A DNA stretch of 64,000 bases from a virus. Of the stretch, positions 46,938 to 50,325 are shown one piece after another. The translations under genes were made by a program, and so were the position numbers. Position 1 is the stretch's first letter. Each line of letters begins with the position of its first letter. The notes beneath the pieces were generated by a model that saw only the letters and a program-made list of their open reading frames with translations, was not told where the DNA came from and did no database searches. The stretch is taken from the IMG/VR virus record IMGVR_UViG_3300021579_000007, positions 1 to 64,000 of that record. One strand, written 5' to 3'.

Positions 46938-49169
46938 TTACGCTGCTACTCCGTACTGCTGTTTCAGTTCCCGCACCGTTAGCGGATTGCCGCGCTGGCT
47001 TACCAGGTCAGTCAAGTCCGTCAGTTTCCCTTGCGAGTACAAATCATATCTTCCGCGCCCCAACACTTCAAGTTGAAAATCTTTGCCCTGGGTCTTGAAC
47101 CAGTCTTGATAGCTCAGCGAGGCGCTCACCTGCCCATTCATGGAAGCTTGTTGATTCCTTCTTGCCGTCGCGATCCGCTCCTCACTCCAGCCCCGGTCTC
47201 GCAAGTTCTGCTGAAAGAGCCGGTCCAGCGTCTGGCCGTCTGCTTGCTGAAGTGGGCGGCCACTCAATTCCTGCCATGACTTGGTTACTGGCACGGCCTG
47301 ACTGCGACAGTTTGAGACGACAATGCCAGAGGCCACATACGAGCAATCGCCTTGTACTTCAAGGTCGAACACGCGGCCATTGTATGTCTGCACTTCCAGT
47401 GCTACGATACGATCATGCCCAAAGAAAACCTTTCCCATCGGATGCTCATTCTCACTGAACACATCACAAATGGTCATTCTCTCCGTGCTATCGAACGGAA
47501 ACACAACCTGGCGAACGGAACCCTTTCCAGATACGCGAGGTATAACAACATCCCCACCAGATCCAGAAGAGAACAAGCTCTGGTTGACTGCGCTAATGGG
47601 AATAGGGTATTTCCTGCCGGTCAACAGCATTGGTCTTGGGGACTCACGAAAGAAACTCACCCCGCCCTGGCTGCCCATTCTGCCCGCATGATCGCCCATA
47701 ATCCTATGCACATGCCCGGCGTTATTGAGCGCTCTGACGAGACTAAACGACGGCATGGGGTCTATAAAAGGATGAGCCAACGGCATAGAGGTAGCACCAT
47801 CCCTCAGCATGTCCGACAAAAGATTGCGAAAGCCGTAGCGCCCCAATTGCTCCAGCGCCTCAGCCAGCGCGAGCAAATAATGCAAGCGGCCCTGGTCTTC
47901 GATTGTCGGTGGATCACGCAATATCAAATCGATTGCGCTATCCTCGACTTCGCGAGACCAGACCTCCTGATCGCCTTTGAAATCGACGTTGGGGGCCACA
48001 AGCTGAATCGCTCGCTTCAGCGCGATCTCGCCCTTGTCAATGCAGGGTGGACAATTTTCCGATGCCGCGCCGATAGGGGATTGACCACGAGTTACTACGG
48101 GAAACTTTTCCGTATTGCCGAAAAGGTATTCTCCGACTTTCACTGCCCCAGTGAATTTCCAGCCACGACCAGACACCAATACCGGGTGGTCATCAGATGC
48201 CCTGAGAATCCGACCGGATTCCGTGTGGATAATCCGAATGATCCCATCCTTGAAGTTCTGCGATCTGCACGCAGTAACGGCAGCAAATCGCCCGTGGTGC
48301 GTTAAAACCTGCTCACCGACTTTGACCCGCTCAATCGGCACGTCACCTCGGGCGGTGGTAATCAGTGTTCCGCTACAAATGGCGCGCCAGTGAATTCTTC
48401 CAGGGCCGCCGTCCCACGGCAGACTATGCCCGATCGGCTGCCCATCGAGCGTGTAGAGCTTGCGTGACCGCGGGATGCAGTACTCGATCGTTGTCCGCCC
48501 ATCCAACACCGAGAGCCACATCACAGACTTGACCACATCGCTGTTAGCACGGAAGGTTGCGAGGCGCGTTTCTTGCGCAACGGTCGAAATGGAACTGTGA
48601 ATGAGTGCCTCCGCCTGATAGGTCGGCACCTGCATAATCCCGTCCGTAAATCCGTTCTCGCGCGTGCCACGAACCGCACGGGTCAGGTCTGAGAGCGAAT
48701 CCCCACGCAGCATACCCTGACGGATGATCTCCGAGAATCGCTGACTCAGGGCACCAGCCTGTTTCGCCCACCACTCGGCGCTCGGGGCGTTGTCAATCAT
48801 TACGGTGCTGACCAGCGTGCGCAACTGCTGCGGAGACCACGCGACGGAGGCCACGTCAACGTCGATCGCGGTATTGAGCGCCCGCACTGTCCAGGTGGAT
48901 TCGAGGTCTGCGAGGTCCTGCATGTTCGCCTGCTGGCTGTCGCGGATATCCCGATAGGCAAGGCGGATGGTCTCTCTGGCCTGTGAAAGCAAGGCGGTGA
49001 GTCGATCACGCCGAAAAGTCGTCAGGCCGGAGCGTTCCAGGTCGCGCACGAGGTCACGCTCAAGCTGCGTGAGGATGCGAAGCACTTCGTGCCGCTCGCC
49101 GGCGGTCAAGCGTTCCAGGGTGACCGCGCGCGCTAAGGTACTGTCAAGAAGATCAGAATTGACGGTCAT
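46938..49169 (-). CDS. MuF-type minor head protein interrupted by an intein
   Basis: 743-residue precursor. Residues 1-264 and 621-743 are the exteins (387 residues after splicing). They include RDLERSGLTTFRRDRLTALL, WAKQAGALSQRFSEIIRQGM, VPTYQAEALIHSSISTVAQE, SDVVKSVMWLSVLDGRTTIE and RIHWRAI/CRSQAVPV, the MuF/gpF pattern of minor head morphogenesis proteins. The intein (265-620) sits exactly in the conserved HWxxCR motif, so splicing is needed to rebuild it. The protein lies between portal and scaffold genes. Confidence 0.85.
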   Translation of the reverse strand: MTVNSDLLDSTLARAVTLERLTAGERHEVLRILTQLERDLVRDLERSGLTTFRRDRLTALLSQARETIRLAYRDIRDSQQANMQDLADLESTWTVRALNTAIDVDVASVAWSPQQLRTLVSTVMIDNAPSAEWWAKQAGALSQRFSEIIRQGMLRGDSLSDLTRAVRGTRENGFTDGIMQVPTYQAEALIHSSISTVAQETRLATFRANSDVVKSVMWLSVLDGRTTIEYCIPRSRKLYTLDGQPIGHSLPWDGGPGRIHWRAICSGTLITTARGDVPIERVKVGEQVLTHHGRFAAVTACRSQNFKDGIIRIIHTESGRILRASDDHPVLVSGRGWKFTGAVKVGEYLFGNTEKFPVVTRGQSPIGAASENCPPCIDKGEIALKRAIQLVAPNVDFKGDQEVWSREVEDSAIDLILRDPPTIEDQGRLHYLLALAEALEQLGRYGFRNLLSDMLRDGATSMPLAHPFIDPMPSFSLVRALNNAGHVHRIMGDHAGRMGSQGGVSFFRESPRPMLLTGRKYPIPISAVNQSLFSSGSGGDVVIPRVSGKGSVRQVVFPFDSTERMTICDVFSENEHPMGKVFFGHDRIVALEVQTYNGRVFDLEVQGDCSYVASGIVVSNCRSQAVPVTKSWQELSGRPLQQADGQTLDRLFQQNLRDRGWSEERIATARRNQQASMNGQVSASLSYQDWFKTQGKDFQLEVLGRGRYDLYSQGKLTDLTDLVSQRGNPLTVRELKQQYGVAA
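47310..48377 (-). mobile_element. Intein in the MuF head protein (356 residues) with antisense endonuclease
   Basis: The N-terminal splice block begins Cys1 in CSGTLITTARGDVPIERVKV (Hint fold block A), block B is ASDDHPVLV with its conserved His, and the C-terminal block reads VFDLEVQGDCSYVASGIVV then Ser-Asn followed by Cys+1. No LAGLIDADG or HNH motif is visible in the sense frame between the blocks. The opposite strand of this interior encodes a Vsr-like endonuclease in exactly antisense register. Ser before the terminal Asn replaces the more common His. Confidence 0.85.
47415..48305 (+). CDS. Vsr-like (EDxHD) homing endonuclease encoded antisense inside the intein
   Basis: 296 residues from ATG 47415 (a TTG at 47352 would add 21). 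An N-terminal helix-turn-helix-like region (HSLRAIERKHNLANGTLSRY) precedes a HEN-associated motif (WSWGLTKETHPALAAHSARM...NPMHMPG). The nuclease core shows YQIDCAILDF, then LLIAFEIDVGGHK, then RDLALVNAGWTIFRCR, matching the D..I...(D/E)xDG.xH....RD..L...GW.V.R pattern of Vsr/DUF559-type endonucleases. It is related in pattern to the endonuclease at 60865. No strong ribosome site or promoter was seen. Confidence 0.75.
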   Translation: MPKENLSHRMLILTEHITNGHSLRAIERKHNLANGTLSRYARYNNIPTRSRREQALVDCANGNRVFPAGQQHWSWGLTKETHPALAAHSARMIAHNPMHMPGVIERSDETKRRHGVYKRMSQRHRGSTIPQHVRQKIAKAVAPQLLQRLSQREQIMQAALVFDCRWITQYQIDCAILDFARPDLLIAFEIDVGGHKLNRSLQRDLALVNAGWTIFRCRADRGLTTSYYGKLFRIAEKVFSDFHCPSEFPATTRHQYRVVIRCPENPTGFRVDNPNDPILEVLRSARSNGSKSPVVR

Positions 49170-49417
49170 TGTGGTAGTAACTCTAGGTCTCGCTTTTCCT
49201 TCCGGGCCTTTGTCTTAGCTGCATGCCACTTGGTTGTATCTCGGGCTTCTTCTCTTGTTATCTGGACAGTCTTTCGCGGTCGTCCAGGGGATTTTATTGG
49301 TAAATCGCTTAGTACAAGCGAACCATCAAGCAACCATCTTGCTCGCATATTATTCCTTCCTTCGGTGATCGCGCGGGAGAGGGTGCTCGTGAGGAGGGCA
49401 TCATTCACAGAGTTCAT
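49166..49417 (-). CDS. Small basic protein sharing the head protein N-terminal peptide
   Basis: 83 residues. The start NDALLTSTLSRAITEGRNN resembles the start of the MuF head protein (SDLLDSTLARAVTLERLT). The rest is basic with KSPGRPRKTVQITREEARDT, an AT-hook-like GRPRK and a helix. It overlaps the head gene by 4 nt and the upstream gene by 17 nt. Possibly assembled from a duplicated 5' end joined to a DNA-binding segment. Confidence 0.55.
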   Translation of the reverse strand: MNSVNDALLTSTLSRAITEGRNNMRARWLLDGSLVLSDLPIKSPGRPRKTVQITREEARDTTKWHAAKTKARKEKRDLELLPQ

Positions 49418-49783: not shown

Positions 49784-49975
49784 TTTACTGCCCCAGCGCA
49801 TCATTCACGCTGACCATGCCGGCTCCCAAGTCCCTGCCCAGCATCCACTACGGCTTCCCTCGAGTCAGCATAAAAACGCTCACACTGGCATTTGAGTTGT
49901 CGCGCACGAGGTCACGCGTTCACGCGTGACGGCACGCGCGAGCGTACTATCGAGCAGATGAGAATTGACATTCAT
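49784..49975 (-). pseudogene. Relic of duplicated head-gene ends
   Basis: A 31-codon frame (49880-49975) starts MNVNSHLLDSTLARAVTRER, closely matching the MuF head protein start (MTVNSDLLDSTLARAVTLER), then stops. Its ATG overlaps the upstream stop (ATGA). Further down, a frame ending SVNDALGQ (stop near 49784) recalls the SVNDALL start of the gene at 49166. The DNA GTCGCGCACGAGGTCACG is shared with the head gene, with an internal deletion between matches. It looks like decayed tandem-duplication debris. Confidence 0.6.
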
Positions 49976-50325
49976 GGTGCTGAGTACACCACAAGTCCAT
50001 TTTCGGTTTTGATTTTCACGAGGCCACAGAGACACATCAACTGCGTAAGATGCAGCCACTGATCACGGGTGCGTTGTGGAAATCCGCCAAGAAGGAAAGA
50101 ATCTCCAGTAGTAGGACAAAATCTCATCTTCGGTTTTCTGAAGGATCTTCTTGTCATTCCGTCGCTTCCCACCGTGCTCTTGAAATCAGAGAAAATACGG
50201 TCAAAATCTCTCTCGGTCAGCTCCCCATGTTTTCTGAGTATGCGAAGAACCACGAGCTGTTCGTGGGCATAGGCAGCGATGCCAACTTTCACTTTTTCCA
50301 CTTCGGCCTCAGTCGTGGTTGGCAT
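49972..50325 (-). CDS. Hypothetical protein
   Basis: 117 residues: EQLVVLRILRKHGELTERDF followed by KPKMRFCPTTGDSFLLGGF and WLHLTQLMCLCGLVKIKTEN, which has a winged-helix-like layout. It may bind DNA. Overlaps the upstream gene by 17 nt. Confidence 0.55.
   Translation of the reverse strand: MPTTTEAEVEKVKVGIAAYAHEQLVVLRILRKHGELTERDFDRIFSDFKSTVGSDGMTRRSFRKPKMRFCPTTGDSFLLGGFPQRTRDQWLHLTQLMCLCGLVKIKTENGLVVYSAP

Follow-up and report, generated by a model that had tools for sequence, protein, structure and literature searches.

In inteins of the PI-SceI and PI-PfuI type, a LAGLIDADG or HNH homing endonuclease is located between blocks B and F of the Hint domain, shares the strand and reading frame of the host gene, and forms part of the precursor. 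These elements home into empty alleles. In the split inteins with a Vsr-like nuclease, the host gene is in two parts and the nuclease gene is located between them, an arrangement that Dassa and colleagues reportedly described in 2009 for a Vsr-like endonuclease gene between the intein halves. A further EDxHD endonuclease, I-Bth0305I, is encoded by a phage group I intron. Antisense homing genes are present in the nuclear group I introns Dsq.L2066 and Dir.S956 of Didymium, and the endonuclease I-DsqI has been shown to be expressed and to cut (PMC9548176). The ShiLan insertion in phage methylases contains a hidden, out-of-frame HNH gene (PMC11855218).

The window analyzed here (a stretch of 64,000 nucleotides from IMG/VR virus record IMGVR_UViG_3300021579_000007) contains a MuF-like head morphogenesis gene with an intein that resembles each of these systems in part (Table 1). 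It shares with the PI-SceI and PI-PfuI type the combination of Hint and homing endonuclease between blocks B and F, and homing into empty alleles is predicted for it, whereas its putative endonuclease is a separate EDxHD protein that is encoded antisense, with a tail overlapping block B. As in the split inteins, an EDxHD/Vsr-like nuclease is coupled to a phage intein; however, the host gene and the intein are continuous, and the nuclease gene is antisense and overlapping. The assignment to the split inteins with a Vsr-like endonuclease was rejected because the MuF ORF is not split. The nuclease is related to I-Bth0305I in catalytic fold and sequence, but the latter is intron-encoded, is not antisense in an intein, and has a different DNA-binding region. 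The Didymium introns are also selfish, self-splicing elements with a homing gene on the opposite strand, but are RNA elements in rDNA that share no protein-coding frame and carry a His-Cys endonuclease (PMC9548176). ShiLan is likewise a phage insertion that is open in the host frame and has a homing nuclease in another frame; in contrast, that frame is shifted and ends within the insertion, the nuclease belongs to the HNH family, a splicing domain was undetected, and antisense coding is unmentioned (PMC11855218). No description of an antisense or opposite-strand endonuclease inside an intein was found in the open-access literature, and within that literature the original prediction of an undescribed class (an unsplit intein with an antisense nuclease) stands. 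The evidence below indicates that the locus is very probably a mobile intein in the conserved HxN/CRS motif of MuF (a slash marks the junction here and below), with Hint in frame and an EDxHD homing endonuclease encoded antisense to it, codon for codon.

Table 1. Features of the MuF locus, with positions counted from the first nucleotide of the window.
Feature	Position	Strand	Evidence
MuF-like head morphogenesis gene (N-extein, intein, C-extein)	46938..49169	-	phrog_241 (E 4e-86), Phage_Mu_F
N-extein, end ...GRIHWR	48384..49169	-	Alignment with L018 MuF and Vibrio empty alleles
Intein, 358 aa, Ala1 (AICSGTLITT) to Ser-Asn (GIVVSN), next Cys+1	47310..48383	-	Pfam, VIA-align
C-extein, start CRSQAVPVTKSW	46941..47309	-	MuF CRS motif directly after the intein in all close relatives
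N-terminal Hint part (intein residues 1-92) with block A and block B, the latter with His66	48108..48383	-	AlphaFold2 pLDDT mostly 55-86
C-terminal Hint part, blocks F and G, VFDLEV...SYVASGIVVSN	47310..47438	-	TIGR01443 intein_Cterm; structure model
Putative antisense EDxHD homing-endonuclease-like ORF, 296 aa and stop	47415..48305	+	Relatives, profiles, fold
Predicted helix-turn-helix (HTH) DNA-binding region, nuclease residues 6-43	47430..47543	+	AlphaFold2 helices 6-18, 23-29, 36-43
EDxHD catalytic core, nuclease residues 148-240	47856..48134	+	Invariant columns; VIA-align
Overlap under double constraint, C-terminal end of the nuclease (QYRVVIR...) opposite intein block B (ASDDHPV)	48108..48302	.	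Codon resampling, relatives

Intein in the MuF Gene

The MuF gene is a single uninterrupted ORF of 743 codons, and its product is 39% identical over the full length to the intein-less MuF of locus L018. Pfam Intein_splicing (5e-7) and Hint_2, as well as the NCBIfam family intein_Cterm (TIGR01443), matched the insertion, and Intein_splicing/Hint_2 matches were obtained for seven of seven relatives, in agreement with the initial reading of a MuF head protein that contains a complete intein. The junctions in the window are ...IHWR/AICSGT...VVSN/CRSQAVPVTKSW. At the empty insertion site, L018 has the sequence ...AHWGCRSTQVPVLKSW (junction HWG/CRS), and the empty alleles of Vibrio phages have HPN/CRST; removal of the window intein would restore an intact MuF of the kind found in these alleles. 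On the basis of the empty alleles and the spacing of block A (G5-T6), the extent first proposed (47310-48377) was corrected to 47310-48383. The intein consequently begins with Ala1, and the residue that had been taken for Cys1 is intein residue 3, which is not conserved (A, V, A, and L in relatives). The window intein has a Hint fold in which blocks A, B, F, and G are conserved: G5, T10, T28-H29, and H66-P67 are conserved in the N-terminal part, and the Hint parts of the model aligned with solved inteins at Z scores of 12-14 (VIA-align).

Class 2 inteins are defined by Ala1, Cys+1, and a residue other than Cys at F:4, with Ser at G:6 in the known members, and those known by 2014 were all KlbA orthologues (PMC4031507). 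The window intein shares with these inteins (Mja KlbA) Ala1, Ser at G:6 (the residue preceding the final Asn), Asp at F:4, the block B His, and Cys+1, and the same residues were found in L003 and L004. It differs from them in that its host protein is a phage MuF and not a KlbA orthologue, and relatives have His-Asn and an Asn at F:4. Its structure model was no nearer to KlbA (Z 12.0, VIA-align) than to other inteins. Class 1 was rejected because it requires Cys or Ser at position 1, and class 3 because it requires Cys at F:4, where the window intein and its relatives with Ala1 or Ser1 have Asp or Asn. The Snoke-type inteins begin with Cys1. Ala1 was also found in L003, L004, L008, L009, L026, and L027, and L015 has Ser1 at the identical site (HFN/SLAEGT); together with that of the window, these inteins form a clade outside the KlbA lineage in which class 2-like splicing may have arisen a second time. 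Ala1 inteins beyond KlbA provide material for the study of the class 2 route.

Antisense Nuclease

The + strand frame opposite the intein interior is open from 47352 to 48305, and the nuclease most likely starts at ATG 47415 because the relatives begin there too. The exact antisense register that had been proposed was confirmed over the same bases: intein and nuclease codons are the same triplets, with nuclease position 3 opposite intein position 1, and the reverse. The proposal of a 296-residue, Vsr-like nuclease in this frame was also borne out. The window protein matched DUF559 weakly (E 0.007), all seven of the first relatives matched this family (best 7e-13), and a profile of nine members matched PDB 3hrl (2e-11) and I-Bth0305I (3r3p; 2e-4). 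Across the profile searches, the E values for 3r3p were 2e-4 to 9e-6. Residues E153, Q169, D178, E189, D191, H195, and R216 of the core are invariant. The AlphaFold2 model of the nuclease, whose confidence is moderate (mean pLDDT 66.5), has an N-terminal HTH; positions homologous to it in the Snoke group matched HTH_7/HTH_58. The core aligned with 3hrl (Z 8.3), I-Bth0305I (3r3p, Z 8.1), and Vsr (1vsr, Z 6.8) in VIA-align. Foldseek by itself was weak (best E 0.43), and the assignment to the EDxHD nucleases is based on the VIA alignment and the sequence profiles. The window nuclease thus has both the catalytic core and the separate DNA-binding region (predicted HTH) of an EDxHD homing endonuclease.

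A Shine-Dalgarno-like motif was present in about half of the 17 loci checked and was not found before the window ATG, and a scan for a sigma-70-like promoter upstream of the window nuclease gave nothing above chance. In E. coli phage Snoke (L031) and Vibrio phage 1.197.A (L033), whose nucleases are 45% identical, the 20 nt preceding the nuclease ATG, including GAGG, are identical; this stretch is the complement of 3527-3546 in L031 and also encodes intein block F.

Distribution and Probable Mobility

A search of IMG/VR and a phage collection with the nuclease as bait yielded 10 loci (the window, L003-L005, L015, L026, L027, and the Vibrio loci L008-L010), all of them antisense and in register. 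The use of MuF plus the N-terminal Hint part as bait recovered phage Snoke, many Salmonella phages, and Vibrio phages 1.197.A and 1.113.A, and the loci fetched in this way likewise had, within the MuF intein, an HTH-EDxHD ORF that was antisense and exactly in register, which argues against an ascertainment bias of the nuclease bait. Relatives of the Snoke nuclease were present in 107 phage records of one collection. Thirteen further loci were fetched from Gordonia, Mycobacterium, Aggregatibacter, Klebsiella, Idiomarinaceae, Acinetobacter, Edwardsiella, a Helicobacter prophage, Salmonella, and Pantoea; the nuclease was opposite the head gene in all 13 and inside an in-register intein in 12. The exception was Acinetobacter phage IME285 (L045), in which a free-standing nuclease (455-1348) is convergent with an intein-less MuF, with an overlap of 7 nt at the MuF end. 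A profile-profile comparison with hhalign showed the two nuclease groups to be homologous (E 3.5e-19). The verified loci numbered 26, several of which were found without the nuclease bait, and a disrupted + strand frame beside an intact intein, the observation that the original prediction had named as refuting it, occurred in none of them. The occurrence of antisense nucleases in Salmonella, E. coli, Vibrio, and Gordonia phages is a spread that the same prediction had missed.

The window has an unbroken MuF ORF, as do those relatives whose contig spans MuF. Within the Guernseyvirinae, the nuclease was found in 70 records (at least 60% identity) and MuF plus Hint in 71 (at least 80% coverage); the two totals agree. 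Short-pattern scans of GTDB genomes, a weak test, detected no nuclease, and no host-genome copies were seen; the short patterns used for IMG/VR and GTDB may overlook disrupted homologues. A plasmid search and one viral scan added nothing useful. In Mycobacterium phage Sejanus (L043), the antisense nuclease is contained in an intein at another position of the head gene (KVWV/CVHPDT...VHN/CTI).

More than 20 Vibrio breoganii phages have MuF DNA that is 85-91% identical to that of Vibrio phage 1.082.O and lack the intein exactly at HPN/CRS. Between Vibrio phages 1.082.O and 1.266.O, the intein is 98.4% identical and the exteins are 88% and 81% identical, and 8 of the 10 differences in the nuclease are at codon position 3. 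Most MuF genes of the E. coli/Salmonella group match only as far as the insertion site. Nuclease and Hint distances were correlated (Mantel r 0.79), with none of 2000 permutations as high, which indicates that the two parts are co-inherited. A real nuclease might instead function in phage competition, defence, or exclusion, with the intein serving as a tolerant site. Phage nucleases can serve in competition, and the free-standing member beside the intein-less MuF of phage IME285 is consistent with such a role. However, the insertion point is the same in divergent MuF proteins, the intein is far more alike than its flanks in two phages, empty alleles are numerous, Hint and nuclease are inherited together, and of the two solved structures most closely related to the nuclease, one is that of a homing endonuclease. 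A function other than homing is therefore improbable, and these observations are better explained by a homing endonuclease.

Selection on the Two Frames

Among six Guernseyvirinae genes, substitutions at MuF codon positions 1/2/3 amounted to 23/14/55 per 100 codon pairs in the N-extein and 12/7/49 in the C-extein. The corresponding values in the intein interior were 22/3/9; the interior varies at MuF position 1, and the free position is therefore position 3 of the nuclease. Both wobble positions were free in the block B overlap (18/8/20), and the pattern returned to 2/2/19 in the C-terminal Hint part outside the nuclease. Amino acid identity of the Guernseyvirinae interior was 0.90 in the antisense frame vs. 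0.76 in the MuF frame. In the window group, interior nuclease identity was 48-64%, compared with the 19-27% forced by the intein protein (codon resampling, z 13-14 for close interior pairs), and interior intein identity was near the level forced by the nuclease protein (z -0.3 to 3.4), all z values being derived from related and hence non-independent sequences. These patterns of substitution indicate that the nuclease frame is under purifying selection. Conservation above the codon-resampling null was seen in relatives for both frames of the block B overlap, and true double constraint is confined to the C-terminal approximately 65 codons of the nuclease over block B. The earlier reading of the DNA as dual-coding is thus supported for the nuclease frame, but a coding function for the entire sense interior is not supported (z about 0 to 3).

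The AlphaFold2 model of the intein is of low confidence (mean pLDDT 41.9) and shows a fold solely in the two terminal parts (residues 1-90 and about 303-358), with pLDDT values of 20-45 in the interior. A sense-frame endonuclease was rejected, as it had neither a Pfam match nor a confident fold. Apart from being free of stop codons, the sense interior resembles an unfolded filler that is under no constraint. It is very unlikely that the sense interior is instead a functional domain, such as a degenerate homing endonuclease or a splicing modulator, and that both frames are equally selected throughout. All 26 loci retain an open sense frame, and in a few pairs the sense identity is slightly above the null (z up to 4), as such a domain would predict; on the other hand, no Pfam domain was recognized in it, its pLDDT is 20-45, its identity is near the level that the nuclease protein by itself would impose, and it varies most freely at MuF position 1.

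Exact-register antisense frames are frequently open in GC-rich genes. Given the codon usage, the probability of an open antisense frame was about 0.01 in the window, which is only modestly unusual, and 0.02-0.14 in the Gordonia and Mycobacterium phages; it was 1e-9 to 1e-15 in the AT-rich Vibrio phages and down to 1e-12 in others. That the + strand ORF is a by-product of intein codon usage and not a gene has a nearly negligible probability, since chance is excluded at the family level by the values in the AT-rich phages, substitutions fall at nuclease position 3 (the flip in periodicity), and the product is recognizable as an EDxHD nuclease by the DUF559, 3hrl, and I-Bth0305I matches.

Proposed Mechanism and Implications

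A mobile intein with an antisense homing endonuclease would function as follows. The late head operon would yield the MuF precursor, from which the Hint parts would excise the intein; in the Ala1 group, Cys+1 would attack the N-terminal junction directly (class 2 route). The nuclease would be produced from antisense transcripts, with expression apart from the late head operon, and would cut the intein-free MuF alleles of co-infecting phages, after which repair would copy the element in. The sense interior would need only to remain stop-free and tolerable to splicing. With regard to origin, a free-standing nuclease gene near MuF, comparable to that of phage IME285, may have joined a small intein in the sole orientation that left the host frame open.

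The loci probably represent an unrecognized and widespread class of mobile inteins in which the endonuclease is always antisense and shares its bases with the intein, and which includes one clade with an Ala1 mechanism that arose outside KlbA. If so, antisense placement would make nuclease expression independent of the late head operon. It would also allow a free-standing nuclease gene to join a small intein with the host frame unbroken, and an intein and a homing nuclease can be joined without a common polypeptide. Surveys of sense-frame endonucleases would score such inteins as having no known endonuclease; the Snoke intein is annotated merely as a large intein of 273 residues. The loci also provide a well-replicated set of natural antisense overlapping genes in which the selection signature is measurable, and homing is directly testable because the phages that host such inteins include E. 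coli phages with intein-free relatives (Snoke and its intein-free relative, the BASEL phage Bas74, which has a 97% identical MuF N-extein).

In the neighborhood of the window MuF, the 5' end of the gene (49097-49173) is repeated upstream at 49903-49979 as a 77-nt copy with 75% identity, and near 49417 there is a third start that resembles that of MuF but has diverged further, as if small ORFs had been inserted together with duplicated gene starts.
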